Source: a virus. From it: a stretch of 52,886 bases of DNA. Both the position numbers and the translations under genes were made by a program. The stretch covers positions 1 through 52,886 of the IMG/VR virus record IMGVR_UViG_3300050821_000727; one strand, given 5' to 3'. The notes beneath the pieces were generated by a model. The model was not told the origin of the DNA. It worked only from the letters and a program-made list of their open reading frames with translations, and searched no databases. Below, in pieces: positions 7,458 through 47,001 of this stretch (its first letter is position 1; the number at the start of each line of letters is the position of its first letter).

Positions 7458-7472
7458 TTAATTCGCCGCTTT

Positions 7473-9458: not shown

Positions 9459-9459
9459 T

Positions 9460-9741
9460 ATGGGTGCAAGACAAAGAGAGTGGGCAAGAAGAAAGAGATT
9501 ACAACTAAGAAGATTGCTCGGTCTAAAATGTAGTTGTTGTGGTTCAAAAGATTACAGAAAACTTGAATTTGATATTATAATTCCAGTTGGTAATTCTGAC
9601 CATCACAGAAAAATGGACTGGTCATGGCGTATGAGTTTTTATTTTCAACAATATAAGAAAAATAATTTACAGTTATTGTGTGGTGGTTCTGTTGATTCAT
9701 GTCACAACAAAAAAACTTGCAGAGAAAATTATAAGATATGA
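9460..9741 (+). CDS. HNH-type endonuclease splitting the polymerase gene
   Basis: The 93-residue protein has a basic N-terminus (RQREWARRKRLQL), a first CSCCG zinc pair, then LEFDIIIPVG, DHHRKMDWSWRMSFY and NLQLLCGG with CHNKK. This is the layout of a small phage HNH family. The first motif His of the usual FDHI is Ile here, so catalysis would rely on the later HH pair; other members also vary there. It ends in an ATGA overlap with the polymerase C-part. It probably inserted as a homing element. Confidence 0.82.
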   Translation: MGARQREWARRKRLQLRRLLGLKCSCCGSKDYRKLEFDIIIPVGNSDHHRKMDWSWRMSFYFQQYKKNNLQLLCGGSVDSCHNKKTCRENYKI

Positions 9742-22964: not shown

Positions 22965-22969
22965 ATGAA

Positions 22970-28646: not shown

Positions 28647-29003
28647 TTAGTATGTATTAGTGTTTATAAACATTCCATATAGATTATTTGTTATGTATAA
28701 TCCAGTTGTATAGTTGTAGCGAACACGCTGTATGACAACATAATTTGTACCGGGAATAATACAAGACCCTGGAATTAATTGACGATTATTTCCGCCAAAG
28801 ACAGGAGAGTTAGTAAACACCGATGTACCATCAAAACTAGTGACAGTCATTTGTGCACTAACTTGTACCATGTTTTCAGAACCGTCCTGTGGATAGATGG
28901 CAATTCCGGCGTACTTGCTGCTGCCCCAGTCGGCTATGTAATTGATTTGTCCAAACGCCGGAGCGCAGAGCAGGCAGAATAATATGGTGCGAAGGAGGGT
29001 CAT
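28647..29003 (-). CDS. Secreted small protein, 118 aa
   Basis: The start is taken at 29003, where ATG overlaps the stop of the glycosidase gene (ATGA) and opens a signal peptide (MTLLRTILFCLLCAPAFGQ). An upstream ATG at 29042 would bury the signal. The mature part is beta-rich and Asn/Thr-rich. Base composition changes inside the gene: the signal-coding end is GC-rich like the glycosidase gene, the rest AT-rich, which suggests a recombination joint. Confidence 0.7.
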   Translation of the reverse strand: MTLLRTILFCLLCAPAFGQINYIADWGSSKYAGIAIYPQDGSENMVQVSAQMTVTSFDGTSVFTNSPVFGGNNRQLIPGSCIIPGTNYVVIQRVRYNYTTGLYITNNLYGMFINTNTY

Positions 29004-32487: not shown

Positions 32488-33822
32488 TTAGGCAGCAGCA
32501 ACGGCGGGGCGTTGACGCAAGATTAATATTGGAAATGCGAAACGTCTTTCTGTCATGATAAGACCATGAACTAATGACGCTTTGAGTTGCAAGTTTTCAC
32601 CAAAGTCGTTCATTTCATAAGTGCCATCAGCATTTGTAATCAACAGTTGGTCAGTCAGCCTAACTTCACCATTCCAACGAAGAGAATAGAATTTCTCTCC
32701 TGTCATATTCTTCTGAGCAAACTCTTTAGGTGGAGGGCCAACCTTAATAGTTTTGCAGAAGTAATCTCCAAGCAACCATGCAATAGAGAATGGAGAGGAG
32801 ACTAGAGAAGTGTAATACGGATTAGGTTTCCACTTCTGGTCAGTTGGGTCAAATATTTCCGGGTCAATCGGAAATCCCGCAGCCCAAAGAACATTACCAC
32901 CACCATCAACAATATTAGCCGTTGAATAACGAATAGGATATTTCTTAATCTTACAGGTTATTGTACCAAACAGTGAACCTTTGAAATCTTCAAACAGCAA
33001 ATCAAGGTTAACAGATTTCAATTGACCTTGAACACCATTAATACCATTAACATCAGGGTCAAATGTAAAGTTGAAGAAGTCCTCAGAGCCACAGAACAAA
33101 GCATAACGACCTTTGAGTCCTTCATTATCCTTTGGCATATTCATAACGCCATTGAATGAGGGAGCACCCAAATCATCCTGCAAGTTCATAATCGCGCGAT
33201 AAATATCACGCAACCTGAGATTTTGAAGAACACCTGTATTCCCACCAGCACCTTGAGTAACAGCAACTAACCATGCAGCAGTCTTAGAATTAGCTGCATT
33301 AAGTGTTGAGTTACCAGCAGCAATAGGAGCACCACCAACAAGTCCAGTACCACAAAGATAGACATAGTTTGCATTAAACCACATCTGAGTCTCAATAAAC
33401 TGGTTGTTGGAGCAAGCAATCTGTTTAACAATATCATCTGAGTTAAACTTAATATACTTATCCCAAAATACTTGGAATGAAGGAATGAAGTTAAACACAT
33501 ACGAACCGTACTTGTGTCTGTACAGAACAGCCTGTTCATTAGACTCTGTGACCTGATAGATGTCTTTATTAGCTGCTGTAGTGATAGGATTCGGGAAGAA
33601 GAATGACCGTCCAACAGGTGTACGCTGTGGAGTTACTGCTTCCATCACTGAACCCATGTTTTCTTGCCAAGGAATTGACCCATACATTTGGTCAAACTCA
33701 TTCCAGTTGGCGTACTGAGGAATCTCGTTATGTACGAGATAGAAGGGAAGTTGTGCAAACAAGTTATTCGCTTGAATAACTGCTGGCGAGAACTGCCCCG
33801 GTAAGTTATAAAAACTTGGCAT
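32488..33822 (-). CDS. Major capsid protein
   Basis: The 444-residue protein lies directly after the scaffold-like gene and is preceded by a sigma-54-type promoter and a good Shine-Dalgarno site (GAAAGG). It is rich in aromatic and beta segments (QVTESNEQAVLYRHKYGSYVF) and has no enzyme motif. Length and order (terminase, portal, scaffold, capsid) identify it as the HK97-fold capsid subunit. The sequence itself is distant from well-known families. Confidence 0.8.
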   Translation of the reverse strand: MPSFYNLPGQFSPAVIQANNLFAQLPFYLVHNEIPQYANWNEFDQMYGSIPWQENMGSVMEAVTPQRTPVGRSFFFPNPITTAANKDIYQVTESNEQAVLYRHKYGSYVFNFIPSFQVFWDKYIKFNSDDIVKQIACSNNQFIETQMWFNANYVYLCGTGLVGGAPIAAGNSTLNAANSKTAAWLVAVTQGAGGNTGVLQNLRLRDIYRAIMNLQDDLGAPSFNGVMNMPKDNEGLKGRYALFCGSEDFFNFTFDPDVNGINGVQGQLKSVNLDLLFEDFKGSLFGTITCKIKKYPIRYSTANIVDGGGNVLWAAGFPIDPEIFDPTDQKWKPNPYYTSLVSSPFSIAWLLGDYFCKTIKVGPPPKEFAQKNMTGEKFYSLRWNGEVRLTDQLLITNADGTYEMNDFGENLQLKASLVHGLIMTERRFAFPILILRQRPAVAAA

Positions 33823-34015
33823 GTTAGCCTTTCAATTAATTATTAAAATTTCAGTTAAACTCAATCCAAGTTTACCGTAAACTTGTAACCGAGCTAAATG
33901 CCCTTTTAGCAACTATTAGAGGCTAATGTAAATGCCCTTTTACTTATTAGAGGCTACTATCCGACTCTTGACCACTTTATAGCATTTTTTATGCCAAAAT
34001 AAATTAACTATTAAA
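33823..34015 (-). promoter_or_regulatory. Capsid gene leader with repeats
   Basis: This 193-bp gap holds the capsid promoter. It also holds two direct repeats in the transcribed leader (33895-33925 and 33929-33955, the same apart from 4 extra bases in one) and a hairpin CAAGTTT/AAACTTG near 33868-33886. The repeats may serve mRNA stability or binding of a regulator. Confidence 0.6.
33981..33996 (-). promoter_or_regulatory. Sigma-54-type promoter of capsid gene
   Basis: On the - strand it reads TGGCATAAAAAATGCT, with GG and GC exactly 10 apart. It matches four other intergenic sites of this phage in TGGCAT and ATGCT. Transcription would start near 33970, giving a leader of about 150 nt to the capsid ATG. 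It should be driven by the phage activator acting on host sigma-54. Confidence 0.85.
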
Positions 34016-35284
34016 TCATCTCCTTGATGGCATACCATCAAGTGAAAATACAGATGGAACACCATTTGCCAATACTCCATTCTGCTCTTTCTTAATAGGT
34101 TGAGTATCTGATGAAGGTTCTCCGCGCTTTAACTCATCATTTTTAATTTGTGCAACTGTCTGACCATTCTTTGCTTCTCTTAATTCTGCACCTTGAATAA
34201 TCATTGCAACAAAGAGGTCACTCGCAACCTCAGCAATAGGAGATGATTGCCAGTAGATTGGTAGCATTGATTTGAAATCAGACTTTATGTCTTTCAACTT
34301 CTTGTCCCCTGAACCTTCAACATTAACAGAGTACTCAAGCAATTTAGGGTCAGCAACCCAAGCAAATCTTTCTTTTCTTACAGCCTCAACTGCTTGAAGG
34401 TCTGATTGTATTTGTTGCTTAAATCGTTGTGGAAAAGTTTGAAGTTGACCACCAATCTGTTGTACAGCATTAGTACAGGCGGATAAATTACCAGCAATAC
34501 GAATCTCGTCAGCATCAGATGGCTCTCGTTCTTCTGACAATACTGGCTTACCATTTTTATCGAACCCTGTAATATCTCTAAACTTCTTTGCAGCTTTAAT
34601 AGCAAGTAACGCTTGTTCCCAACACTGTCCTTCTGTCTGAGCAAAGTATCCTTTCGATTGCAACTGTTGATATTCTGGACTTAATGTATATCCTTGGTCG
34701 TGTTGTAGATAGGTTGCTTCTCTAAGCGCAGCGAGTCCCTTGTTTTCTTTGATTAAATTGGCAGCATATTCTCGTGATTGACGAGACATATTCTTTAGAT
34801 TAATCTGCTCTTGTGGAGTAAAGCCAGTATAATCAAAAGCATCTTGACCATCTTTATGCTCCTTAACAGGAGTTATTGGCTTAATCGACCCGCTTTTCTC
34901 TTGCTCTTTACTCTTGTCCTCAACTTTAGCATCTTCCTTTTTAACTTCTGTAGGCGCTTTGAGAACCGATTTAGGTTCATCTTTCTTAACTTCTTCTTTC
35001 TTTTCATCTTTCTTTGGCTCTTCCTTTTTAATTTCTTCAACCTTCTTATCATCGGTAGGAGATTTAATAACTAACTCTGGCTTCTCATTATCCTTCTTAA
35101 CTTCTGCTGAATCAGTCTTGACTTCTTTATGGTCAATAGATACCACTGAATCTCCAACCCCCTTATTAGCAAAATTAGGGTCATAAGTAAAGGTCATTTC
35201 CTTTACCTCTTTAGGTGGTTCAGATGGCATCTCAGGAGTTAATCCTCTACCTGCACCGGGAGTTGGTTTAATATCGTCTGGCAT
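34016..35284 (-). CDS. Scaffold-like protein, Lys/Glu-rich
   Basis: The 422-residue protein has a highly charged N-terminal 150 residues of Lys, Glu and Pro (KKEEPKKDEKKEEVKK) followed by a helical body. Such composition and a location between portal and capsid are typical of phage scaffolds, which direct capsid assembly and then leave. No protease domain is seen in or near it. Confidence 0.75.
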   Translation of the reverse strand: MPDDIKPTPGAGRGLTPEMPSEPPKEVKEMTFTYDPNFANKGVGDSVVSIDHKEVKTDSAEVKKDNEKPELVIKSPTDDKKVEEIKKEEPKKDEKKEEVKKDEPKSVLKAPTEVKKEDAKVEDKSKEQEKSGSIKPITPVKEHKDGQDAFDYTGFTPQEQINLKNMSRQSREYAANLIKENKGLAALREATYLQHDQGYTLSPEYQQLQSKGYFAQTEGQCWEQALLAIKAAKKFRDITGFDKNGKPVLSEEREPSDADEIRIAGNLSACTNAVQQIGGQLQTFPQRFKQQIQSDLQAVEAVRKERFAWVADPKLLEYSVNVEGSGDKKLKDIKSDFKSMLPIYWQSSPIAEVASDLFVAMIIQGAELREAKNGQTVAQIKNDELKRGEPSSDTQPIKKEQNGVLANGVPSVFSLDGMPSRR

Positions 35285-35286
35285 AG

Positions 35287-35544
35287 TTAAGTTTTATTTG
35301 ATTGTTCAATGAATTTGGTTGTTGAAGTGACCATTGAAATTATTGCATCAGTTGTTCGTATCCCATAAGCGTGCAAACGAAATGCTACATCTGGTTCAGA
35401 AGTATTACCTGCGCCGAGAGACAGAGTTTTTACAAACTGTTCTCTATGAAGTTGTAGGTTCTTTATTAGTTGCACAGTGCACGGATGTGTCAACCACGCT
35501 CCATGTTGAGCAGACAAAACATTTTCTGGACTTAGTTGTTCCAT
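35287..35544 (-). CDS. Small helical head-region protein
   Basis: An 85-residue helical protein (TVQLIKNLQLHREQFVKTL, then TTDAIISMVTSTTKFIEQ) between the scaffold and portal genes, separated by 2 bp each side. Small proteins here often help capsid or portal assembly. No family was recognised. Confidence 0.7.
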   Translation of the reverse strand: MEQLSPENVLSAQHGAWLTHPCTVQLIKNLQLHREQFVKTLSLGAGNTSEPDVAFRLHAYGIRTTDAIISMVTSTTKFIEQSNKT

Positions 35545-35546
35545 GA

Positions 35547-37472
35547 CTATTTCTGTACTCCATTCTTCTGTTGTGATTGTTCTTGCATCTGTTTGAACTT
35601 ATCTGCTGCCACTTCAACAAGAGGCAAAGCATGTATTCTGCCTGTCTCAGAGAACCATTCTGGATGTTCTGCAAGATGTACAATACCTTGTCCAGCTTGT
35701 TTAGCCATTGCAATACCTTGACCTAATTGCGACTGCTGTTGTTGCTGTTGTTCAGCCATTTGTTGTTTGATGGCTTGAACATATTTAGCAGCACTATCAG
35801 GGAATTGCTTCTCAAGAAAATCAGTCAAAAATGGAATCGCCGCGCCAGTATTTTGAATAACTGGCCAAGTTTCCATCATTGACTGAATAAGTTTTGCCTT
35901 CTCAATAACATCAACATCACCAGAAGGTTTGACTGTCCAAGACCGAGCATATAATGGAGCAACAACAGGATTAACTTTAATCAAACCAGCTAGAACTCGT
36001 GACTTAATAATATCACACTCAAACGTAAATTGATTCTTCAGTGCCACAGAGAATAGTGTAACTTGCACTCCTGATAACTGTTGAGCCTGTTGAGTTGCGG
36101 CTTTAATTGCTGTTGCTGTCTTTCGAGAATCAGCTTGTTTATTAGTTTCTGCAAAATTAACTTGAGATGTTTCTTGCTGATTGGACGACACTAACAACTG
36201 AATAGCAGTAAACATCTGTGGGTCTGGAGCATCTAACTTCATCTCTTTTAGTTTACCATTAATAATAGCTCCTGTCTTGAAATAAATATTCTTCTGGATA
36301 AGAAAATCATCATTTGGGTCAGAAGTATCTTTGGAAAAGTATAATCCAGCAGCGCGGCGGGCCTGAGTAAGAGTTGACGACATCAATGAAGATGCAGCAT
36401 TTTGTGTATCTTGGTCTAAGAATATCCTACCTTTAAGATTAGCTATTGTATCATTCTCTGATATTAAATATGGATATAAGAAGTATGGATAAGCTGTCTC
36501 ATATTCTTCATCAGAAGGAGGAATCCCACTTTTAATTTGGTCTATGTGTTTATCTGTAATGTTGGGATTAAACTTCTTAATTGCTGGAATAGCCAAAGAC
36601 TGCATCATTGGTGGAATCTTTGATATTACTGGTGCCAACTTTGCAGCAGATTGATTAATCTTTCTACGACCCAAAAACAAAGGACGAGGTTTACGAATCC
36701 AATCATCACATATTTTAGGACAAGCCCAAGCAACTTGAACCACTCCTTTTACTCTAAACATAATCTTCATAACTTTATACAAAGACCTATTTATAGTTAC
36801 TGTGCCAGAGTAAATATTAGCTTGTTCGTCATTTGGTTCTGAGTCTAAAATCTTCTGAACTTGTTTCTTTTCCCACTTATCATCTCCTTCTGACTCATTA
36901 GTTATTAGAGACTTCAATTTGGTGCGGGTAAAGTAATAAGAACGTCCTAACATCTCGCACTTTTGAATATCTCTTGTATCAGCAATAAAAGCAAAATCTC
37001 CATATTGTACATACTCTCTTCCCAACTCCCCAGGATTATTCAAGTCTTGAACTGTCTCCATCACTCCATAACCATTAGCTTGGAATCCATCAATATTGGC
37101 ATACATTGATAGTTGCCATCCATCAAAGCGCAACTTCTCTGTTAAATCAACCTCTAATAGAGACAAATCAAAGGCAGCATCAGTCCTATCTTTCAATATT
37201 ACTGCCCTTGGAGATTGAGTAATGTACTGTATATATGCAGACTGCTCCCGACGAATGTTAGTATCAATGATATGTAATGGTACATACAACTCGTCAGGAG
37301 CAATTCTTCCACCCTTTCTTTCCAACTCTATATCAACTTCTGCATAACGCAGTTTACGAGAAGCTAACAACTTAGATGTCAAGTCAAATGTGACATCTTT
37401 TAGGTTGTCAATTTTCGTCGCTAACTTCTCGTAGTTAGTTGAATCTATGTACTCTGTGGAAGTGTCTGCCAT
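35547..37472 (-). CDS. Portal protein
   Basis: The 641-residue protein has a helical and beta pattern usual for portals, with ELYVPLHIIDTNIRREQSAYIQYI near the start and a long helical C-terminus. A poly-Gln stretch (EQQQQQQSQ) is near residue 590. Position between terminase and scaffold supports the call. It forms the ring at the capsid vertex through which DNA is packaged. Confidence 0.8.
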   Translation of the reverse strand: MADTSTEYIDSTNYEKLATKIDNLKDVTFDLTSKLLASRKLRYAEVDIELERKGGRIAPDELYVPLHIIDTNIRREQSAYIQYITQSPRAVILKDRTDAAFDLSLLEVDLTEKLRFDGWQLSMYANIDGFQANGYGVMETVQDLNNPGELGREYVQYGDFAFIADTRDIQKCEMLGRSYYFTRTKLKSLITNESEGDDKWEKKQVQKILDSEPNDEQANIYSGTVTINRSLYKVMKIMFRVKGVVQVAWACPKICDDWIRKPRPLFLGRRKINQSAAKLAPVISKIPPMMQSLAIPAIKKFNPNITDKHIDQIKSGIPPSDEEYETAYPYFLYPYLISENDTIANLKGRIFLDQDTQNAASSLMSSTLTQARRAAGLYFSKDTSDPNDDFLIQKNIYFKTGAIINGKLKEMKLDAPDPQMFTAIQLLVSSNQQETSQVNFAETNKQADSRKTATAIKAATQQAQQLSGVQVTLFSVALKNQFTFECDIIKSRVLAGLIKVNPVVAPLYARSWTVKPSGDVDVIEKAKLIQSMMETWPVIQNTGAAIPFLTDFLEKQFPDSAAKYVQAIKQQMAEQQQQQQSQLGQGIAMAKQAGQGIVHLAEHPEWFSETGRIHALPLVEVAADKFKQMQEQSQQKNGVQK

Positions 37473-37479
37473 AATAGTC

Positions 37480-37704
37480 TTATTTCCCTGGCATACTATC
37501 AGTTGAATATTCTGACGGATGTCCAGAATCGTGAGTCTGTAGATGCATCAATGTTTGTGCAAGTCTAGCTCTATGACCCATTACTCCCGGTGATTTCTCA
37601 TGCTCTTTAGCAAACTCAGCAGTAGATTTACCTGCCTTCTCTGCCGCACTTTTGAAAGCACCATGATGCTCAATCGCTGTTTCTATCCAATGTTTGTCAG
37701 CCAT
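37480..37704 (-). CDS. Small phage protein, MADKHW type
   Basis: The 74-residue protein is read from the ATG at 37704, where a typical opening appears (MADKHWIETAIEHHGAFKSAAEKAGKS). An earlier frame start at 37797 would add an unlikely Leu-rich extension. The sequence is helical, His-rich and basic. Related small proteins appear next to portals in many phages; their role is unknown. Confidence 0.75.
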   Translation of the reverse strand: MADKHWIETAIEHHGAFKSAAEKAGKSTAEFAKEHEKSPGVMGHRARLAQTLMHLQTHDSGHPSEYSTDSMPGK

Positions 37705-37705
37705 A

Positions 37706-38017
37706 TTATGCCTTTGGAGCAGGATTAGTAGGTGGCGGAGTTGTTGGGGCGGGAGTCTTAGCTGGAACAAATGAAGATACAGCTTTACCCTTATCATCTT
37801 GTCCTGTTACACGATAGAGTGTAACCCCTTGCACAGTAACAGTATTCTCATTACTATTCATAACTACCACATTTCCGCTAATTATATTCAAGTATTTATT
37901 CATATGATTTGTTAATGGTTTGATGTCCGCCGCTATTGGTTGACCACAAGTGATACACAACTTCTGTTCTGGTTTCTTGATGAAGGTACGTTCTTGTGGA
38001 TTGTATGTTTCTGGCAT
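37706..38017 (-). CDS. Small protein with CxxC zinc pair
   Basis: The 103-residue protein has one CITCGQ pair (residues 21-25), a beta middle and a Pro/Thr/Ala-rich tail. One CxxC alone could bind zinc only as a dimer. It sits between portal-side and terminase-side genes. Its function is unknown. Confidence 0.65.
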   Translation of the reverse strand: MPETYNPQERTFIKKPEQKLCITCGQPIAADIKPLTNHMNKYLNIISGNVVVMNSNENTVTVQGVTLYRVTGQDDKGKAVSSFVPAKTPAPTTPPPTNPAPKA

Positions 38018-38025
38018 AAAGTTAT

Positions 38026-38259
38026 TTAGATAAAGTTAATTTCAACTGCAAGGCTCCAAATTGCTTCATCTTGTTCAGATGATAATACTTCTGGTAAGGT
38101 ATTACATAGTATTTCTAAATTATTTGCCTTATTTCTAAGACGATGAATTTTATCCTTAAGAACTGCTTTTGCAGATTGTCGTGAACAACATGTTGATACT
38201 TGTCCAATGCTACCACCAGTTGGATAACTTTCCTTTACATTTTTTATTTGGTCTTGCAT
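38026..38259 (-). CDS. Small helical protein, 77 aa
   Basis: The protein has a helical, charged middle (AVLKDKIHRLRNKANNLEILCNTL) and a TCCSRQ cysteine pair. A strong Shine-Dalgarno site (AAGGAG) precedes its ATG. It lies 2 bp after the terminase gene. Role unknown; it may be part of the packaging set. Confidence 0.7.
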   Translation of the reverse strand: MQDQIKNVKESYPTGGSIGQVSTCCSRQSAKAVLKDKIHRLRNKANNLEILCNTLPEVLSSEQDEAIWSLAVEINFI

Positions 38260-38261
38260 AA

Positions 38262-40049
38262 TTATCTCCTTACTAGGTTCTGGTTTATTTCTTTTATTTG
38301 TTCTCTAAGTTCATCCATCTCACTAAATTCAATGTGCTCTGGACGAAATTTATGTAAATCTGCATATGCCCAATTCTTCTGGTCGAAGTCACCAGTTACT
38401 TTAGGATTAGTATCTTCCTCTTTAACTTCATATGGTAATGAAGTCAATATAGACTCAACATATGTTGATTTGTAGTCGTAGAAAGCTAATGCAAAAGAGT
38501 CTGCTCTATCTGGAGAAGGATAGCCTCTGGAACGAGATTCAATCTTTGACAACAACTGATGAACAGAACCATCTACCAATTTGTAATATCTAGTAGATAA
38601 CTGACGAATCAATATTGGGTCATCAATCATTATTATCTCATTACGCTCAAATAATAGCCTTACATTAAACCATATTTCTGACCCACGATTCTTATATGTT
38701 TTTGGCCTAGACGACTTTGTACGATTATCAATATATCGTATATTACTCCACCCTTGACGCTTCATCCTATCCAACATAGGCTTTCCAAGACCACCCATGT
38801 CAGAGAATATATACGCTTCTGGCTTATCCAACTCGTACTCTTTGAACTTCTGATTGAGAAATTCAATGGTATCTTCTGTATTGTCAAAACGAAATGGTAT
38901 TGTTTTGAGATGCTTATTGCCATTACGAATAGTTAATACAGTCTCATCTCCACCATCTGATAAGTCTAGTCCTGCTTTATTGACAGGTTCAGATAGGTGC
39001 GCTGGTGGATTCTTAACTGATTTCCATATGTAAGTATATGGAATAACAACCATTTCATCTGTAGTTCCAAACTCGGCAAGTACTTGAGATTTGTATGCTG
39101 CTCCATTTTCATGCCCTGGCAAATCTCTCCGCATCTGTTCTATGTACTGTTTAGGTATATGAGAACAATCAAACGCTGTTACATGATACTGTATCCAATC
39201 AATCGCCGCAACATCATATACTGATTGGATAGATTTTCTATCTATTGCCGTTGAACAATAGTCAAAGAAGTGACCTTGAATATTTCCTGGCGTTGAAACC
39301 AAGCACCTGTGAGTATAACCTGTGCATTTATTGAGGGCAATGTTAATCTCATCACTGACTGTTTTGGCTTCTGATTCAAAAATTCCCATCTTAGCATTTG
39401 GCTCAAGTGGATGATATCCTTCGGCTTTCCCGGATTCATCTGTTGCAAACAAGACAATAGGGCTTCCCGTTGCAAGACATTCATAATAACGGTAGTTACA
39501 TTTCCAGATTGGCCCAAAGATTTGGTTTGCTTTTTCACAGAGTTGCCTTATATAAGTGTCAGTTTGATTATCAAGTTGAATACCAGACGAAGAAGTAACA
39601 ACTCCACGAGCCTTCTGGTATCTCATACACAGCCAAACAACACATGGAGCTATGATATATTTATCTTTTCCAGAACCATTACAGGCGCGGACTACTGCTT
39701 GAAATGGATTTTTATCTGATTGTCCACCTGCTGCGAAGTCAAGAAGAAACTGAATTTGCCAGGGGTGTAAGTCAATCCCACCATTTTCTTTGCCCTTTTG
39801 AACATTATCATCAAGCAACCATAGCATCTCAAATGGGTCTTTAAACTTTATACCATCAGCAAAGTCATGAGACACAGGTGCCGCTGGCGCAACATCTTTA
39901 ACTTCATCTCCCAAAGAACAACCAAAAGAAGATATAGTCTGTGCCTCAGTTTCCAGTACCTTAGGAGATGGAGGAACCATTGGTACTGGAATTTGTTTTC
40001 CAGAATTAATAGCATCCACTAGTTCTTCTGGAGAAATATTACTAGACAT
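38262..40049 (-). CDS. Terminase large subunit
   Basis: The start at 40049 (8 bp inside the TerS gene) is preferred over 40073. The 595-residue protein has a Walker A-like ACNGSGKD (about 122-129), an SDEIN segment and LVSTPGN coupling motif. The C-terminal RNase H-fold nuclease has GLDLSDGGDE, YIFSDMGGLG and SPDRADSFALAF. These are the ATPase and nuclease that pump and cut phage DNA. Two alternative ATGs lie upstream. Confidence 0.9.
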   Translation of the reverse strand: MSSNISPEELVDAINSGKQIPVPMVPPSPKVLETEAQTISSFGCSLGDEVKDVAPAAPVSHDFADGIKFKDPFEMLWLLDDNVQKGKENGGIDLHPWQIQFLLDFAAGGQSDKNPFQAVVRACNGSGKDKYIIAPCVVWLCMRYQKARGVVTSSSGIQLDNQTDTYIRQLCEKANQIFGPIWKCNYRYYECLATGSPIVLFATDESGKAEGYHPLEPNAKMGIFESEAKTVSDEINIALNKCTGYTHRCLVSTPGNIQGHFFDYCSTAIDRKSIQSVYDVAAIDWIQYHVTAFDCSHIPKQYIEQMRRDLPGHENGAAYKSQVLAEFGTTDEMVVIPYTYIWKSVKNPPAHLSEPVNKAGLDLSDGGDETVLTIRNGNKHLKTIPFRFDNTEDTIEFLNQKFKEYELDKPEAYIFSDMGGLGKPMLDRMKRQGWSNIRYIDNRTKSSRPKTYKNRGSEIWFNVRLLFERNEIIMIDDPILIRQLSTRYYKLVDGSVHQLLSKIESRSRGYPSPDRADSFALAFYDYKSTYVESILTSLPYEVKEEDTNPKVTGDFDQKNWAYADLHKFRPEHIEFSEMDELREQIKEINQNLVRR

Positions 40050-40482
40050 CAACACACTCTTTCTGCACACCACTGCCTAGTATTCGTTGTTTAATACCAG
40101 TTGTAACCTGTCTGGCGCGCTCCAATTGTTTGTTGATGAACAGAATATTAAAATTATTTCCCGCCATTCCTTTTACAACATCTTTTCTCCCCTTTGCATC
40201 ATCTCTTACATATGTAGCCATTTTTGCCCTCAAATGAGGGTCTTCTGCACCTAAGGCCAAATCAAGTATCATTTCTTTTACTCTAGCCTGTTCATCTTCT
40301 GTGTAATTTAATCTATTCTCATTCTCTGGCTCTGTCCCACATGCTTTACGATATTTTGATGAGCATTGCATAAGACCAGCCTTAACAGCATCAACTTGCA
40401 ATTCTTGAGAATCAGAAATCTCTTGTGGGGTCATTCCTTCATCCTCATACGCTGTTTTAATTGCTGTAAGTTCTGCTGTCAT
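40042..40482 (-). CDS. Terminase small subunit
   Basis: The 146-residue helical protein starts with a helix-turn-helix-like MTAELTAIKTAYEDEGMTPQEISDSQEL and overlaps the large subunit by 8 bp. Order and pattern fit a TerS that recognises packaging sites. It is not recognisable by a catalytic motif, so this rests on context. Confidence 0.75.
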   Translation of the reverse strand: MTAELTAIKTAYEDEGMTPQEISDSQELQVDAVKAGLMQCSSKYRKACGTEPENENRLNYTEDEQARVKEMILDLALGAEDPHLRAKMATYVRDDAKGRKDVVKGMAGNNFNILFINKQLERARQVTTGIKQRILGSGVQKECVDV

Positions 40483-40487
40483 ACTAA

Positions 40488-40709
40488 TTATTTAAATCCA
40501 AACCTCTCAAAATCAATATCAAGTTTCTCCATTGACTCAGCGTGCATAAATTGATGTGTGAAATGTATAGCATTGTGCAATGCCGCCAATTCGTCTTTAG
40601 TGTGAGTTTCTTCTGGCCTACGAGTTAAATTCGCTTTAGCTTCAGATTTAGTGCGCATCTGAATAGTTTTCATCGGCGCGCCTTTAGCTGTTGGGATTAT
40701 AAGATTCAT
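40488..40709 (-). CDS. Small basic protein before terminase
   Basis: A 73-residue protein with a basic N-terminal half (KTIQMRTKSEAKANLTRRPEE) and a His-rich helix (LHNAIHFTHQFMHAESMEK). It overlaps the next upstream gene by 4 bp. It may bind DNA, but no family is known. Confidence 0.65.
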   Translation of the reverse strand: MNLIIPTAKGAPMKTIQMRTKSEAKANLTRRPEETHTKDELAALHNAIHFTHQFMHAESMEKLDIDFERFGFK

Positions 40710-40879
40710 ACTATTGGTGCGAGCATTTTATATACTTCCTCAACGAATTTAATAGTTACTGGCGCGGCGACCCCTCCCTCTTCAAATGATGCTATAGAGA
40801 TAGTTTTAACTTTCTGCTCACCTTGTAAGCTAGTCTTAAAGCCACAATCATTTAGTGATATATTGTTCTCTGTGTGCAT
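40706..40879 (-). CDS. Small protein, 57 aa
   Basis: The frame runs from ATG at 40879 to TGA at 40706-40708, overlapping the start of the next gene in ATGA fashion and the end of the previous one by 32 bp. The product has alternating strands and a helix (IKFVEEVYKML). The tight coupling supports it. Confidence 0.6.
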   Translation of the reverse strand: MHTENNISLNDCGFKTSLQGEQKVKTISIASFEEGGVAAPVTIKFVEEVYKMLAPIV

Positions 40880-41012
40880 CTTTGATTTTCTTTCTTATTT
40901 CTCTAATATCAGCCTCTAAAAGTGTCCTATACCTTGCTGGCATTTGTCCTTCTAATTGTTTACTAATCATATTTCTCTGTGACACTAATTCTTTATAGTC
41001 TGTCTCGTTCAT
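40848..41012 (-). CDS. Small helical protein, first gene of late arc
   Basis: The 54-residue protein (MNETDYKELVSQRNMISKQL ...) is helical with a basic end and resembles small phage helical proteins with a QMPARYRTLLEADIREI pattern. It starts about 10 nt downstream of the predicted start of a sigma-54-type promoter. It opens the virion operon. Confidence 0.7.
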   Translation of the reverse strand: MNETDYKELVSQRNMISKQLEGQMPARYRTLLEADIREIRKKIKDAHREQYITK

Positions 41013-41032
41013 TTATCCTATACCGTCCTCTT

Positions 41033-41048
41033 AGCATTTTTCATGCCA
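41033..41048 (-). promoter_or_regulatory. Sigma-54-type promoter of virion operon
   Basis: Read on the - strand it is TGGCATGAAAAATGCT, with GG-N10-GC spacing. It lies 20 bp upstream of the first late gene. A start near 41022 gives a very short leader. It should control terminase, portal and, by read-through, much of the virion arc. Confidence 0.85.
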
Positions 41049-41220
41049 ATTATACTAATAGATATTCTGCGCGCTTGTTAATAGTTGTATTAGTTATTCT
41101 TGTTTTTTCACTATTTGTCGAGAGAGATGTATAGTTCAGTTTCGACTTTCGCTTTCTGGTTTTCTGCTAGAAGTTATCTTTATATTGAATGTTAGTGATG
41201 GTTATGAGTGTTGCTCACTA

Positions 41221-41244
41221 TATACTCAGTATATACTTAGTATA
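41221..41244. repeat. Two overlapping 13-bp palindromes (operator-like)
   Basis: TATACTCAGTATA and TATACTTAGTATA overlap by 2 bp with centres 11 bp apart, about one helical turn. A weaker third half-match follows. Just downstream is a perfect TATAAT. This looks like a pair of repressor or activator sites; no obvious regulator gene is adjacent. Confidence 0.65.
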
Positions 41245-41334
41245 GTCAGTACGCTATATAATACTAACTATTAGTTGCTAGCATTACTAATACATAGTGT
41301 TATTATCCCTAATACAACTATCATAATCATACCT

Positions 41335-41354
41335 AATACTATGCTGTATTCACT
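41335..41354. repeat. 20-bp inverted repeat, left arm
   Basis: This sequence is the exact reverse complement of 41504-41523. The two arms enclose 149 bp, including a sigma-54-type promoter at 41431-41446. Confidence 0.9.
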
Positions 41355-41430
41355 CTTAGACTTTTTAATAAATTGAAAAAAAGGCGTTATTAGGAGTTGT
41401 ATTTCTTAAAATCTGTCTAATAATGGGACA

Positions 41431-41446
41431 TGGCATGAAATATGCT
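41431..41446 (+). promoter_or_regulatory. Sigma-54-type promoter inside inverted repeat
   Basis: TGGCATGAAATATGCT has the invariant GG and GC 10 bases apart and matches the other phage sites. In this orientation it would start near 41458 and transcribe the GIY-YIG gene at 41524. It lies between the two 20-bp arms. Confidence 0.8.
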
Positions 41447-41503
41447 ACATAAGTAATATAACTAATACAAATTATATATTTGTCAATAAATAAATATAAA
41501 TAA

Positions 41504-41523
41504 AGTGAATACAGCATAGTATT
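41504..41523. repeat. 20-bp inverted repeat, right arm
   Basis: It is the exact reverse complement of 41335-41354. It ends at the base before the ATG of the GIY-YIG gene. Confidence 0.9.
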
Positions 41524-41964
41524 ATGGATAATACAACGAGCATAACAAATACTACTAACGACATGCAAGAGTTTTTACGCGAGCACCTAGTTAAGCCACC
41601 ACAGACACTAGAAATGAACATATTGCGTCTTAATGAGTTACAACCAGAGTCTAAACAATTTATTGGCGTGTATTGTATTACTCATCGTGATAGTGGACGG
41701 CGATATATTGGACAATCAAAAGACGTGTGGAATAGGTATGCTCAACACTGTAGGTTTAAAAAGGCTGATAAGGATAACTTATTGCAAGCGGCTTTGAGAA
41801 AATATGGTCTGCAAGCCTTTGATTTTGAGTTACTTGTGGACTGTGAGAAAACAGGGTTAAATAAACTAATAATGGAGCGAGAATTTATTAGAAAATATAA
41901 TACAACTGATATCCGCTACGGATTCAACATTCGTTGTAAATACCCTGATATCAACGAAATATAG
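41524..41964 (+). CDS. GIY-YIG endonuclease
   Basis: The 146-residue protein shows the GIY-YIG core: GVYCI (in place of GIY), then RRYIGQSKDVWNRYAQH, with an Arg and a later Glu (MEREFIRKYN) as expected for catalysis. Phage members are often homing nucleases. Only the N-terminal 40 residues are extra; no DNA-binding domain follows. The start codon touches the inverted repeat. It may have inserted here with the repeat. Confidence 0.88.
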   Translation: MDNTTSITNTTNDMQEFLREHLVKPPQTLEMNILRLNELQPESKQFIGVYCITHRDSGRRYIGQSKDVWNRYAQHCRFKKADKDNLLQAALRKYGLQAFDFELLVDCEKTGLNKLIMEREFIRKYNTTDIRYGFNIRCKYPDINEI

Positions 41965-42160
41965 TTGCAAATAATTGTTGACGTGTATAATATACCTGCT
42001 ATAGTGCTCATAGTTCTTTGACATCTCATAGCACGGTTGAATTACTGGTCTGGTGGACACAATAACTCTACCACCACTCAATTTATCGTGTAACGTATAG
42101 GCAACGGTTATCTGTCATGTTAGACTCACAAATTTGTGGACGTAAGGAGTGTTGCAAGCT
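41965..42160 (+). promoter_or_regulatory. Leader with palindromes
   Basis: After the sigma-70 promoter come a GTGCT/AGCAC pairing, a TGGTGG/CCACCA hairpin and a perfect 12-bp palindrome CACAAATTTGTG (42127-42138). AAGGAG at 42144-42149 precedes the next gene. A regulated leader is likely. No tRNA can be folded. Confidence 0.5.
41978..42005 (+). promoter_or_regulatory. Sigma-70 promoter with extended -10
   Basis: TTGACG (41978-41983), a 16-bp spacer and TATAGT (42000-42005), preceded by TGC as an extended -10. Each box has five of six consensus bases. It follows the GIY-YIG stop and could provide early transcription independent of the sigma-54 activator. Confidence 0.65.
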
Positions 42161-42370
42161 ATGCAACTTATACCTATAAATGAGTCAAGCAAGTATGTTA
42201 ATTGGAATGACTTATCCACAATGAAAATACTTACCTGTAAAAATCACCCTACGGCAAGGTATTCTACCAAGAATCCTTGGAAACGCAATCTACATATTCT
42301 TGAATTTCCGCAAGGCATGTCTAATGAATGTTCTTGTTCATTCAATGACTTGTGTTTGATTGTTGAATAG
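42161..42370 (+). CDS. Small Cys-containing protein, 69 aa
   Basis: The ATG at 42161 is chosen because AAGGAG ends 11 bp upstream; a GTG at 42149 overlaps that site. The protein has a CKNHP and a CSCSF cluster and a basic middle. Its function is unknown. The gene is bracketed by a 14-bp inverted repeat, and a perfect DnaA-box-like TTATCCACA (42212-42220) lies within it. Confidence 0.6.
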   Translation: MQLIPINESSKYVNWNDLSTMKILTCKNHPTARYSTKNPWKRNLHILEFPQGMSNECSCSFNDLCLIVE

Positions 42371-42377
42371 TTCACAT

Positions 42378-42398
42378 GCTAGGCAATTAGTGCCTAGC
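42378..42398 (+). terminator. 8-bp hairpin after small gene
   Basis: GCTAGGCA/TGCCTAGC with a 5-nt loop. It starts 7 bp after the stop at 42370. There is no T-run, so it is at most a rho-type or stability hairpin. It partly overlaps the right arm of the 14-bp repeat. Confidence 0.5.
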
Positions 42399-42475
42399 TT
42401 GCAACACTTCAAAACTCCATAAACGCTTGCGGTAAATCGCCGCAACTGTCACAACGTAGTAACTACAAAACTAAC

Positions 42476-42826
42476 ATGAAAACTGATAACCTAATTGTGG
42501 AAAAAGCTCTTGAGCCGTTCAAACGTTCACTTGGCGACAGCATGCCAAAAATAGTTGGCGACATCAAGTCACTACTTGGACGTGTGGACAAAGACGTAAT
42601 AGTGAAAGACGGCGACTGGAAAGCTAGTGCCGGATTCAAACTGTCACGTCGTAATGGTGAAACGGTTCAGCTACCTGCTAATAACCCTGCAACCATATTG
42701 CTATGTTTTGGTATGCGCTTCAATGAATTGGCGAAGAACGCCGATTGTAACATTGAAGCAGGCATACCTAGCCAGTGTGAGGCATGGGTGAAGGAACACA
42801 AATTGCAACCGAAGGTTGCTGCCTAA
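42476..42826 (+). CDS. Hypothetical protein, 116 aa
   Basis: A mixed alpha/beta protein with a helical start (ALEPFKRSLGDSMPK), a beta middle and a helical cysteine-containing end. Codon use is balanced. It is followed by a strong hairpin and T-run, and so closes a short early transcript. No family is recognised. Confidence 0.75.
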   Translation: MKTDNLIVEKALEPFKRSLGDSMPKIVGDIKSLLGRVDKDVIVKDGDWKASAGFKLSRRNGETVQLPANNPATILLCFGMRFNELAKNADCNIEAGIPSQCEAWVKEHKLQPKVAA

Positions 42827-42843
42827 GTGACGTAACACGACTT

Positions 42844-42922
42844 GGCCGTAACAGTTTAACGCGGACACTAGACGGAGAAAATCTCTTTTGTTCAGCGACT
42901 CTGTTACGGCCATTTTTATTTT
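42844..42922 (+). terminator. Terminator with 11-bp stem and long loop
   Basis: GGCCGTAACAG (42844-42854) pairs with CTGTTACGGCC (42901-42911) and is followed by ATTTTTATTTT. The 46-nt loop holds a small GAGA/TCTC hairpin. The stem and tail make a plausible intrinsic terminator; the unusual loop could be a separate RNA element. Confidence 0.7.
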
Positions 42923-43368
42923 CCACTGACCGTAATATCATCTAATGGATTACAGTAGGTAAATAGCATTAGAACTAGCAATCTGCTAAACCCACATTGT
43001 TACAGATGATGCAACCGCCTAGCATGTACACACCTGCAATGGCTATGTCCAGACAGAGTTAAACTTTGTCACCGCGCCCTAATAGTTGATTTACTCGCTA
43101 TATAGGTATTATTGACTTGCCAACTAGAAAGATTGCAGGACTTTAGATGATAGATAAAGAGTCATCACAACATCATGTGATGCAGTTAAGTTGCTCCTAT
43201 GGCAAACTTGAATAGTAGCCAGTGATTACTGCGTTACACCAGTAGTTGCTCAACTGATTTTGGCGGGACGAAAGACTCGCTATTACTACCAAGATTAACA
43301 GCATAGTGAGATGCAACACTTCAATGAACAGTGAACGAAATCCATAAGAACGTAAGGATAACGGCTGT

Positions 43369-43384
43369 TGGCATAGAATATGCT
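43369..43384 (+). promoter_or_regulatory. Sigma-54-type promoter in non-coding region
   Basis: TGGCATAGAATATGCT with GG-N10-GC spacing. Its start near 43396 would give a leader of over 400 nt to the gene at 43832, covering the inverted repeat. It could make a free RNA or act in origin activation. Confidence 0.8.
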
Positions 43385-43649
43385 TACAAATGTATTCAGC
43401 AATACGTTGACTAGTTATTAGAGTTGCTGATTTATCACTGTTTAATAAATGTGGCTGATAACCACTATATACATAGTTGGTCAATTACACATAGGATTAG
43501 TCCATCTATTGTTTGGAATTTATCACCAAATAAGAAGATGACTCCTAAAGACAAGTAGTGACATGGAATGTGTGACGTATCACTCGCCAACTATGTTGAT
43601 TTGTTATCAACTGTTACAAGCCAGTACAAACACAGAGTAATTGAAATGT

Positions 43650-43777
43650 ATCCTAAACCCTCACACTAATCCCGCCTATACTATATTGCTGATAACGTAC
43701 ATAGTTACCCATGATTGATTGAAGCTGATAACGGAAGTAATACAACTGCTAAATCAATTAGTGTGAGGGTTTATGAT
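43650..43777. repeat. 21-bp inverted repeat with 86-bp centre
   Basis: The arms 43650-43670 and 43757-43777 are reverse complements apart from one base; the inner 16 bp are perfect (AAACCCTCACACTAAT). Two GCTGATAAC repeats lie between them. It may form a long hairpin or be a protein-binding site at an origin. Confidence 0.8.
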
Positions 43778-43831
43778 ATATACCACCCATAGTGGGATTT
43801 AAACCAATACAACAAGAAAGAACAACCAAAT

Positions 43832-44044
43832 ATGAAAATAGAAAAATATAGTGGCTCGGTCAAACCTAAAATAAACTTAAGCCGAAATATTATTAATCTA
43901 AAAGTTGGTGAGGCACTACGATTAACAACAGCGGCAGAGACGCTGTCATCAATAGGTCGTGCATATAATCTTTCATATAAATATAATTTCAAAATACAGG
44001 TTAAAATGGATGGAGACGATGTATTGATAATTAAAATTAAGTGA
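43832..44044 (+). CDS. Small basic protein, 70 aa
   Basis: A beta-rich, Lys-rich protein (MKIEKYSGSVKPKINLSRN ... NFKIQVKMDGDDVLIIKIK). It has AAAGAACAAC 6 bp before its ATG in place of a normal Shine-Dalgarno site. Its function is unknown. The gene after it starts 1 bp later. Confidence 0.65.
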   Translation: MKIEKYSGSVKPKINLSRNIINLKVGEALRLTTAAETLSSIGRAYNLSYKYNFKIQVKMDGDDVLIIKIK

Positions 44045-44045
44045 C

Positions 44046-44231
44046 ATGACACCCCAAGAATTTAATCGTCTCCTATCATTCCATCGCGCCAAACGATATG
44101 CTCCAAGAACTAATGCCATATCTAAGCGCTCTGCAAAGGCCAAAAGAACTGGCACGGGTCAATGGGTAAGAGGTTCACGAATTGTGTCAGAAGTTGGATT
44201 AGAGAAATTGTTCTTACCATTCCATAAATGA
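44046..44231 (+). CDS. Small very basic protein, 61 aa
   Basis: The protein is rich in Arg and Lys (FHRAKRYAPRTNAISKRSAKAKRTG), which suggests nucleic acid or ribosome binding. It overlaps the lysozyme-like gene by 4 bp. No family is recognised. Confidence 0.65.
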   Translation: MTPQEFNRLLSFHRAKRYAPRTNAISKRSAKAKRTGTGQWVRGSRIVSEVGLEKLFLPFHK

Positions 44232-44563
44232 AACTCTCAATCGTTATTTTATTGGCAATCATGCCAGCGATAGTAGCCAGTGGAGCAACATTAAATCAAC
44301 TTGCTATCGACCGGATTGCCAATGCTATTTACAGAGCAGAGGGTGGTAATAATACTCGTTTCCCATATGGTATCAAATCAATCAAGAATTGCCATAACCG
44401 CCGTGCCATTTGTATCAACACAATAGTTAACAACTACAACCGTTGGTCAGGTCGCGGCGATTTTATTGTTTATTTAGCAGACCATTATTGCCCAGCATCA
44501 ACAGATTTCATTGGTCACAAAAATTGGATAAACAACGTGAAGTATTTCTTAAGAAAGGATTAA
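44228..44563 (+). CDS. Lysozyme-like secreted endolysin candidate
   Basis: The 111-residue protein has a signal sequence (MKLSIVILLAIMPAIVASGA) then ANAIYRAEGG, with a candidate catalytic Glu, PYGIKS, NNYNRWSGRGDF and ADHYCP. This set occurs in a family of small phage and bacterial lysozyme/transglycosylase-like proteins. Export by Sec would let it act without a classical holin. It is in the early arc, far from the papain-like protein in the late arc, so two separate wall enzymes may exist. Confidence 0.75.
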   Translation: MKLSIVILLAIMPAIVASGATLNQLAIDRIANAIYRAEGGNNTRFPYGIKSIKNCHNRRAICINTIVNNYNRWSGRGDFIVYLADHYCPASTDFIGHKNWINNVKYFLRKD

Positions 44564-44564
44564 T

Positions 44565-44837
44565 ATGCTAATAGCAGTATGTGATGGTTGTGGAAAAGAA
44601 CTTCCAGTTAATTTGGAAAAAACATTAGACCATGACTCTATGCCTAATGAAGTTCCAGAACGGTTTTCTCTGACATTCAAGAGAGATTTTGGTTGTAGAA
44701 TACCAGAGGATGGAAAGCAAAATCATTATATTTGCTGTTCTGATGAATGTCGACGTTTGATTGACGGAGATAAACAATACGGAATTTTACGTTCACTTGA
44801 AGAAGTAAAATCTGGAACTTTTCCAACAAAAAGTTAA
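44565..44837 (+). CDS. Zinc-finger-like small protein
   Basis: The 90-residue protein has CDGCGKE near its start and CCSDECRRLI further on, a four-cysteine treble or ribbon arrangement. A good Shine-Dalgarno site (AAAGGA) precedes it. Such proteins may bind DNA or RNA. No catalytic motif is visible. Confidence 0.7.
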   Translation: MLIAVCDGCGKELPVNLEKTLDHDSMPNEVPERFSLTFKRDFGCRIPEDGKQNHYICCSDECRRLIDGDKQYGILRSLEEVKSGTFPTKS

Positions 44838-44841
44838 CACT

Positions 44842-45012
44842 ATGGAAACAGCAAAAACATTAGCAATTAAACATATCGGCATGAAACAATTTACGTTTCA
44901 TGTGAAACAACCATGGAAATCATCACCAACTAAAGTAACTCGTTTAGTAGAGTCTCACAAAATAGGACGAGTTGTTCATGCTGGTGGAACAAGAATAGGA
45001 GCATTCAAATGA
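44842..45012 (+). CDS. Small basic protein, 56 aa
   Basis: The frame runs from ATG 44842 to TGA 45010-45012 and overlaps the next ATG by 4 bp. The product is basic with KHIGMKQFTFHVK and RVVHAGG segments. It is unrecognised, but the coupling supports expression. Confidence 0.6.
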   Translation: METAKTLAIKHIGMKQFTFHVKQPWKSSPTKVTRLVESHKIGRVVHAGGTRIGAFK

Positions 45013-45422
45013 AGTTGTCAGATGCAAAGAAATACCTGCCATTCGTGCAAGCTGTGGCGGAGGGGAAAACTATACAATGGGCACATAAAGGAGCACAAGA
45101 CTGGCAAGATTGTAACGAAAATGTTTTTAATGGTTGGTTTACTCCACAAGACACTGATTTTGGTAGGCATTTTCGCATCAAACCCGAACCAAAACTTCGT
45201 CCTTGGAAGCCAGAGGAAGTGCCATTGCAAACATTTCCCTTTAGACTAAAGGAGTATCCTAATGATATACTATTTTCCATTGGCCACAACGAAAAAGGAC
45301 TAATTTTTGTAAGCAGAATTCTTGATATTCAAGTATATGACTATAAAACTCTCTGTGAATTAAGAGAGTATTCCTCTGACCACGGCAAAACTTGGCTTCC
45401 TTGCGGAATATTAGAAGAATGA
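45009..45422 (+). CDS. Conserved phage protein with RIKPEPKLRPW motif
   Basis: The 137-residue protein has LPFVQAVAEGKTIQ and then a RIKPEPKLRPWKPEEVP stretch, a pattern seen in many phage hypothetical proteins. Its beta-rich end has YDYKTLCELREYSSDHGKTWLPCG. The function is unknown in all cases known to me. Confidence 0.8.
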   Translation: MKLSDAKKYLPFVQAVAEGKTIQWAHKGAQDWQDCNENVFNGWFTPQDTDFGRHFRIKPEPKLRPWKPEEVPLQTFPFRLKEYPNDILFSIGHNEKGLIFVSRILDIQVYDYKTLCELREYSSDHGKTWLPCGILEE

Positions 45423-45628
45423 AAATTTTATTAGACAACAAAGAAGAAACTCGTACTGGTTATGGTTTTCTGAATTTCAATATGACTGTCAAACTAACAT
45501 TTTATCCTTTTGAATTTGTTATTTTGCCGTTTTTCATTTTGTCACGCTATAAAGAGCCATTTCAATACTACAAATGGTACTTCACATTTAGATGGCTATT
45601 TCTGTTTATAGTAATTTATCACAAATAG
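45419..45628 (+). CDS. Small membrane protein, 69 aa
   Basis: The ATG at 45419 overlaps the previous stop. The protein has two aromatic hydrophobic segments (FEFVILPFFILSR and FTFRWLFLFIVIY) and a short soluble start. It might be a holin or a membrane modifier. It ends just before a promoter gap. Confidence 0.65.
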   Translation: MKILLDNKEETRTGYGFLNFNMTVKLTFYPFEFVILPFFILSRYKEPFQYYKWYFTFRWLFLFIVIYHK

Positions 45629-45694
45629 TATTAATTGCAGATTACAACCGGTTTTAATAATTGATTAAACCACAATTTAGCCTATAATATAACA

Positions 45695-45710
45695 TGGCAT
45701 AGAAAATGCT
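45695..45710 (+). promoter_or_regulatory. Sigma-54-type promoter of 45803 gene
   Basis: TGGCATAGAAAATGCT with exact GG-N10-GC spacing. A start near 45722 gives an 80-nt leader containing AAAGAACAAC and a minimal ATG-TAA. Read-through would supply the genes up to the helicase and ligase. Confidence 0.85.
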
Positions 45711-45802: not shown

Positions 45803-46393
45803 ATGAGCGAAACAACTGTAAAATCACCCCTTGAAACTCCACACGTTGTTGAACGTAATGGAGTCTCTGAAACACTCAAATGCTTCATTGGTAAGCGTGG
45901 AGCGTGGGAAGGTAAACATTATCAAGCTCCACAGTTGGAGACTGATGGAACTGATAGCGCACCAGCAGAAGATAATATCTTCATGCGTGGTCTAACCTTT
46001 GTCGGCAAAACTAATCTCAAGAATTTCTTGAATGTTATCTTGCGCCGATTTGGTCAAGATTATGTTGAAGATGCTATTGGTACTGAAGGAACTCCTGAAG
46101 CTGGTATTTTCAATTTGGAACGCTTCTTGGCCTTCTGGAAAGAACTTCGTTCTTCTGCAATGAAGTTGTCCGAATTGAATGAAGCATATCAAGCTGCTGT
46201 TGCTGAATATACTTCTTTCACTGGTGGAGAACTTGTTGAGGCGTTTGAATCGGGTGACGTTACTCGTATCAAATATGCCAAGGATAAGATGGCATCTCTC
46301 AAAGGTACTCTTAATTCTCTGAAAGCAGAGTTTGAAGAGCGCAAGGCTCGTCGGAGCAAGGAAGCTGCTGCTGAAACGACTCAACCCGAATAA
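45803..46393 (+). CDS. Abundant-type unknown protein, 196 aa
   Basis: The protein is helical and acidic with a long C-terminal coiled coil (about residues 110-185, LSELNEAYQAAVAEY ... LKAEFEERKARRSKEAAAE). Its codon use is smoother and more GC-ending than that of its neighbours, as for a highly expressed gene. Its own sigma-54-type promoter and a hairpin after the stop support strong expression. It may be a nucleoprotein or structural helper; no family is recognised. Confidence 0.75.
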   Translation: MSETTVKSPLETPHVVERNGVSETLKCFIGKRGAWEGKHYQAPQLETDGTDSAPAEDNIFMRGLTFVGKTNLKNFLNVILRRFGQDYVEDAIGTEGTPEAGIFNLERFLAFWKELRSSAMKLSELNEAYQAAVAEYTSFTGGELVEAFESGDVTRIKYAKDKMASLKGTLNSLKAEFEERKARRSKEAAAETTQPE

Positions 46394-46473: not shown

Positions 46474-47001
46474 ATGCAATTATTAAAACTATCGAATGAT
46501 GGAATGTTTGCAATGGTGGATGACGAAGATTTACCTCGTCTATCTTTGTATAGGTGGTGTGTGGCAGGTAAGTCTATTGGAAGAAGTTTCCAAATTCAGG
46601 TGGGTGCAATTCGAAAAAAGAAAACTGTTTGGGTTTCATTGGCCTCTGAAATAATGAGACAATACGGTCAAATGAGACAATACGGTCAAATGTTTGACCA
46701 CGCCGATAGAAATATATTTAACTGTATCAAAAATAATCTTAGGCCTACAAATAAGTCACAAAATGGAATAAATAGAGGTAAACCAAACTTATCGATTTAT
46801 TCCTCAAAATATAAAGGGGTAACTTGGATAAAAAGAGATTCCAAATGGAAAGCAAGAATTAAGTGTGGAAACAAAACCTATAACATAGGACATTTTATTA
46901 ATGAAATTGATGCTGCGAAAGCATATAACAAGAGAGCATATGAACTATTTGGAGAATTTGCTTATTTAAATACCAATGATGGCTCAAATGGCGGCGATTA
47001 G
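46474..47001 (+). CDS. HNH homing endonuclease with AP2 domain
   Basis: The 175-residue protein begins with a FAMVDDEDLPRLSLYRWC segment typical of this family. It continues with a short HNH-like stretch (MFDHADRNIFNCIKNNLRP) and ends in an AP2 DNA-binding domain (SKYKGVTWIKRDSKWKARI ... DAAKAYNKRAYELFGEFAYLN). An in-frame 18-bp tandem duplication repeats MRQYGQ just before the HNH part. These genes spread by homing and seldom serve phage growth. AT content is high. Confidence 0.85.
   Translation: MQLLKLSNDGMFAMVDDEDLPRLSLYRWCVAGKSIGRSFQIQVGAIRKKKTVWVSLASEIMRQYGQMRQYGQMFDHADRNIFNCIKNNLRPTNKSQNGINRGKPNLSIYSSKYKGVTWIKRDSKWKARIKCGNKTYNIGHFINEIDAAKAYNKRAYELFGEFAYLNTNDGSNGGD

Follow-up and report, generated by a model that had tools for sequence, protein, structure and literature searches.

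Predicted sigma-54-type promoters and a phage-encoded activator in an uncultured tailed-phage lineage

Six short elements, each pairing a GG and a GC, are dispersed between the genes of an uncultured lytic-type tailed phage that also encodes an AAA+ protein, raising the question of whether they are sigma-54-type promoters and, if so, what fires them. The window analysed here is the whole IMG/VR virus record, of 52,886 bases. Its positions 1–97 are identical to 52790–52886 (a 97-bp end overlap), and a DNA ligase gene spans the junction of the two ends; thus the record, which itself gives no completeness, is a complete genome of ~52.8 kb, circular or circularly permuted.

Promoter-like sites and the gene blocks behind them

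A pattern search of the window recovered all six sites of the initial annotation, with GG-N10-GC spacing in each (Table 1). Five are exact matches to TGGCAT-N5-ATGCT, a pattern whose reversed form had no match in the window, and the sixth, immediately behind the activator gene, is an exact match to the classical TGGCAC-N5-TTGC. The sites had been placed in gene-free gaps, and none of the six overlaps a curated open reading frame (ORF); with 12.5% of the window non-coding, the chance of six of six falling in non-coding DNA is ~4e-6. Scored with a weight matrix derived from other genomes, the six sites reached 20.5–27.9 bits; nothing else in the window came to 13, and the reversed window sequence gave no match. 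Each site is directed at downstream genes, as had been proposed, but the block after 43369 is weak, with ~440 bases of gene-poor DNA preceding a small ORF. Upstream of the promoters, no long common element was found beyond AT-rich words, which fits an activator independent of enhancers.

Table 1. Sites, genes and gene blocks of the window (positions in the 52,886-base stretch)
Feature	Position	Strand	Remark
Predicted -24/-12 promoter TGGCACGTTTCTTGCT	2113-2128	+	Just 3′ of activator gene, ahead of replication block
Predicted -24/-12 promoter TGGCATAAAAAATGCT	33981-33996	-	~157 bases upstream of putative major capsid protein
Predicted -24/-12 promoter TGGCATGAAAAATGCT	41033-41048	-	Ahead of terminase/portal block
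Predicted -24/-12 promoter TGGCATGAAATATGCT	41431-41446	+	78 bases before GIY-YIG endonuclease gene
Predicted -24/-12 promoter TGGCATAGAATATGCT	43369-43384	+	Gene-poor region
Predicted -24/-12 promoter TGGCATAGAAAATGCT	45695-45710	+	93 bases before gene 45803-46393
Predicted sigma-54 activator, bare AAA+ bEBP, 300 aa	1175-2077	+	PF00158, 1.3e-54
Replication block	2464-12121	+	Downstream of 2113 promoter
Unknown genes	2464 and 3684	+	Replication block
Sak4-like AAA protein	5396	+	Replication block
DNA polymerase A (family A)	7733, 9738	+	Replication block
Primase-like DUF3987 protein	10757	+	Replication block
Late structural block	12257-33822	-	Downstream of 33981 promoter; from gene order
Tail genes, 834-aa glycosidase/LamG protein, 1632-aa protein	Within 12257-33822	-	
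Putative major capsid protein	32488-33822	-	Role from position and conservation
Leader RNA of capsid transcript, two tandem hairpins	33893-33943	-	Covariation
Terminase/portal block	34016-41012	-	Downstream of 41033 promoter; from gene order and conservation
Gene 34016-35284	34016-35284	-	Terminase/portal block
Putative portal	35547-37472	-	Name from position
Putative terminase	38262-40073	-	Name from position
Small ORF, plus a further ORF	41012; 40042-40482	-	Terminase/portal block
GIY-YIG endonuclease gene	41524-41964	+	Downstream of 41431 promoter
Helicase	49846-52056	+	Rightward gene

Leftward from 40482 to 12257, the genes run in the order putative terminase, portal, the gene at 34016, major capsid and tail proteins; the proteins so named gave no informative match in profile libraries, and their names come from position and conservation. 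Gene 45803-46393 opens a rightward block leading to the helicase and the activator. Several features of the layout were noted alongside. The DNA polymerase A gene (7733-10760, +) comes in two pieces, one for the exonuclease and one for the polymerase; in the window they flank a small cysteine-rich, HNH-looking ORF (9394-9741), an arrangement resembling the insertion of a homing element. An AP2-domain protein (46474-47001, +) is of a kind typical of free-standing homing endonucleases, with the GIY-YIG gene nearby. The 834-aa structural-block protein (29000-31504, -) joins alpha-galactosidase-like (Melibiase_2) and Laminin_G_3 domains; perhaps it is a tail glycosidase, which could hint at the host surface. 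An ORF-poor stretch of ~2.2 kb (41965-44227), from the GIY-YIG gene to 44228, contains the 43369 promoter along with several short inverted repeats and may encode small proteins or a non-coding RNA; the window gave no match in Rfam and tRNA scans.

The leader RNA of the capsid transcript contains two tandem hairpins with an invariant AGGGCA loop closed by an A-U pair, each preceded by a box resembling GCTTCTA, GCCTCTAA or GCTACTTTA. Across 31 hairpin copies from relatives' capsid leaders, 86% of cells were paired and covariation reached 0.907, as against 0.18 when shuffled and at most 0.19 when slid. The hairpins are rare elsewhere in the genomes and had no Rfam match. Box followed by hairpin recalls the boxA-then-boxB layout of nut sites, and the hairpins are possibly a nut-like antitermination or translation-control element; a nut-like role would suit a long late transcript.

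Spacing, direction and placement across relatives

The activator, terminase and capsid proteins, used as queries, brought up 21 related records, which have a common gene order, in circular permutation, and widely diverged proteins. Alignment of the activator to IMG/VR found 267 encoding stretches, the best 80 of which were kept. In the 27 non-redundant records used for spacing tests (1.40 Mb), TGGCAY-N5-WTGCT had 139 matches, while spacings of 0–4 and 6–12 had 1–9 each, making every other spacing 15-fold or more rarer than N5. The base after the 3′ half was T in 139 cases and C in 4 (TGCT versus TGCC); the motif therefore has a direction and is no palindrome. A leave-one-genome-out matrix found 135 sites of at least 13 bits in 20 records, as against 1 in reversed controls. 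Long ORFs (100 or more codons), which cover 80% of the DNA, hold 21 of the 139 sites (15%) but 28 of the 36 wrong-spacing controls; the equal frequency inside genes that the initial annotation had named as grounds for rejection was thus not seen.

Placement was followed by looking for matches at 12 or more of 14 positions in up to 900 bases of DNA ahead of orthologous genes. Of 26 non-redundant records, 25 have a site before the major capsid gene, 107–264 bases from its start and always in coding orientation. The block behind the activator gene is preceded by one in 17 of 18 records and the terminase block in 17 of 20; all seven records with gene 45803 have a site ahead of it. The same scan found none before the activator, helicase, two polymerase and portal genes, and with the spacing off by one base, as a negative control, only 0–3 matches before orthologous genes. 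A motif search of the genome and its relatives thus bears out the family as first described, with spacing, intergenic placement and position before orthologous genes all kept. Matches are fewer in the most distant records: the capsid site is missing from the G004 group, and G037 lacks an exact match but has a 12-of-14 site before its capsid gene. Among 36 further activator-bearing records, 28 have at least one TGGCAYN5WTGCW site (the reversed pattern had 3 matches), and at least one of the eight without a site (G050) has only the activator in common with the window.

The published sigma-54 consensus is TGGCAC-N5-7-TTGCT (PMC12316311). In spacing and in both halves the phage motif equals TGGCAC-N5-TTGCT, with GG and GC exactly 10 bases apart (consensus TGGCAY-N5-TTGCW), and its sites lie upstream of genes, in gene direction and depleted inside genes, as in sigma-54 promoters.

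No capsid match was found in 50,697 records of cultured phages, where the activator matches seem to be mostly bacterial sequence deposited as phage, along with one gut phage. Against 84,980 species genomes, the capsid alignment gave a single contig (JACTVG010000014.1; capsid protein 80% identical), filed in a Methanoregulaceae archaeon MAG from a SPRUCE sample. As archaea, to our knowledge, have no sigma-54, this is probably a mis-binned phage contig.

The predicted activator and how it would act

The matching activator that had been reported is indeed encoded, with its motifs intact: Walker A GETGTGKE, L1 loop GAFTGA, Walker B VMFLDEIGD and arginine fingers FRKDLYAR, which make up the AAA+ core of a bEBP. 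The protein aligns with NtrC1 (5e-45) and falls with NtrC1, PspF and FleQ by sequence and fold; its AlphaFold model (pLDDT 89) matches the AAA+ domains of FleQ, FlrC, NtrC1 and PspF, and in a library of viral protein models the closest found were Clp and MoxR-like ATPases. E-values given here apply to single searches. Fifteen aligned activator sequences retain the Walker A, GAFTGA, Walker B and arginine-finger positions, some relatives having loop variants of unproven activity (GAYTGS, GSYTGS, GAFTDA). All 15, like the model, end at the lid helix and therefore have no C-terminal HTH, a domain present in all bEBPs but group 5; the N-terminus comprises only ~65 poorly conserved residues and is shorter still in the G004 group. 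Judged from sequence and model, then, the phage protein is an activator by its core and not an enhancer binder.

All 15 near-full-length relatives tested carry one PF00158 activator each, at 40–74% identity and with the catalytic motifs kept, and the three relatives without it are fragments of 15–34 kb. An RpoN model that gave positives for E. coli, B. subtilis, Caulobacter and Bacteroides found no sigma-54 gene in 16 genomes, and a single-subunit RNA polymerase was not found in a search run without positive control; no phage RNA polymerase is recognizable, as far as large unannotated ORFs without Pfam matches allow.

The reading of the sites as sigma-54-type promoters with a phage-encoded activator is supported by their spacing in 27 records, their intergenic placement, their orientation and their conserved location ahead of orthologous genes, and by the presence of an activator in all near-complete relatives. 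Completeness of the genome, conservation among relatives and an activator devoid of a DNA-binding domain go beyond the initial annotation. We consider it very likely that host sigma-54 polymerase is fired at the middle and late -24/-12 promoters of the phage by a bare activator that the phage itself makes and that works independently of enhancers. The following course is what we infer as to the host, the order of events, activation from solution and transcription as such. Early genes, including the helicase and activator, which have no sigma-54 site immediately before them, would presumably be read by ordinary host polymerase, and the early transcript would yield the activator. Host RNA polymerase with host sigma-54 would bind the -24/-12 promoters as a closed complex, which activator hexamers would remodel with ATP via the GAFTGA loop, opening the promoter. 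As the activator has no DNA-binding domain, it would most likely act from solution, with no need of an enhancer. Transcription of the replication block would start at the promoter that immediately follows the activator gene and that of the late genes at the promoters ahead of the capsid and terminase/portal blocks, and several rightward transcripts would also be switched on; since the 45695 site points along the strand leading to the activator, positive feedback would be possible.

The sites might instead be sigma-54 promoters fired by a host activator, with the phage AAA+ protein doing something else, for example forcing on the host sigma-54 regulon. That phages can use host activators is indicated by the Pseudomonas phage YuA (Yuavirus), reported to be strictly dependent on host sigma-54 (PMC5053324) and carrying no PF00158 protein. 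Were the activator dispensable for phage promoters, however, its loss would be expected, so its retention in every near-complete relative, despite divergence to 40–74% identity, counts against this explanation, as does the site that nearly always precedes the block behind the activator gene; we regard it as improbable.

A different protein altogether, a phage repressor or other DNA-binding protein, could have the sites as its operators, and the near-palindrome TGGCAT-N5-ATGCTA, with its two nearly complementary halves, as well as the location near gene starts, would fit. Yet the palindrome is not kept in the 3′ half across records, on which count a palindromic operator was rejected, and the capsid sites all share the coding orientation; with spacing and both halves equal to the published consensus and a cognate activator co-occurring, operators are very improbable. 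Chance matches in AT-rich intergenic DNA find some support in a loose search with three mismatches allowed, which gave 211 matches in the window, only slightly above the 171 in shuffles, and is uninformative. Exact matches, however, number 5 against 0, and the rarity of other spacings over 1.4 Mb, together with a position before orthologous genes that is kept despite wide protein divergence, already refutes this explanation, to which we give practically no credence. The preferred reading, host sigma-54 polymerase fired by the phage activator, can be extended with less assurance to the group as a whole: a widespread lineage of uncultured phages probably relies wholly on host sigma-54 polymerase for its middle and late transcription, via a self-encoded, naturally bare, enhancer-free AAA+ activator, which would replace a phage polymerase or sigma factor and also induce the whole host sigma-54 regulon.

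Comparison with known systems

In YuA (GenBank AM749441), three -24/-12 promoters are marked in the stretch examined; its annotated promoter stretches had no match to the window motif and its proteins, apart from one marginal match, none to those of the window. The two phages are alike in having genes under -24/-12 promoters that use, or here would use, host sigma-54, and, as expected of a YuA-type phage, no sigma-54 gene was detected for the window phage. YuA, however, has no sigma-54 activator gene, whereas the window phage and its relatives carry one and thus represent a different variant.

Sigma-54 activators that, like the phage protein, have no DNA-binding domain are known in bacteria. 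The group 5 bEBPs FlgR (Helicobacter) and CtcC (Chlamydia) carry a receiver domain, unlike the phage protein with its short N-terminus. PspF(1-275), a truncated laboratory activator, is a bare AAA+ domain that works from solution. Another bare AAA+ domain, DctD250, activates sigma-54 promoters without an enhancer, from solution (PMC3844500); both resemble the phage protein but are laboratory constructs and not natural proteins. FleT, also bacterial, has been named the only known bEBP without both regulatory and DNA-binding domains (PMC7175178). The phage protein would be a natural example of a bare bEBP, making enhancer-free sigma-54 activation testable with a native pair.

Activator-like proteins, to judge from sequence, occur elsewhere in phages, as the PHROGs family phrog_7998 (unknown function) matches the window activator (1.6e-35) and the human gut phage MT121960 (MT121960.1) has an unannotated 307-codon sigma-54-activator-like frame at ~22538-23002. 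MT121960 showed no motif enrichment and no other genes in common with the window group. Phage-borne activators may have arisen more than once. Searches of the open-licence literature found no phage-supplied sigma-54 activator, and none paired with a phage-wide promoter family.

The best-known routes by which phages take over transcription are polymerases or sigma factors of their own, the appropriation or activation of sigma-70, and antitermination. In T7-like phages an early product, their own RNA polymerase, redirects transcription to dispersed short phage promoters before the replication and structural blocks. The general plan of an early product and a dispersed promoter family is the same here, but the early product would be an activator of a host holoenzyme form. 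The findings, an arrangement shared by dozens of uncultured relatives, point to a scarcely known viral route for taking over the cell's transcription, predict host sensitivity through rpoN and offer a compact orthogonal activator/promoter set; the activator plus TGGCAY-N5-WTGCT is a simple marker for a large phage group of which the collection searched contains no cultured member. That phages use host sigma-54 was known; what is new, as far as the open-licence literature shows, is a phage genome that carries both halves of the predicted sigma-54 switch, the activator as well as the promoters.
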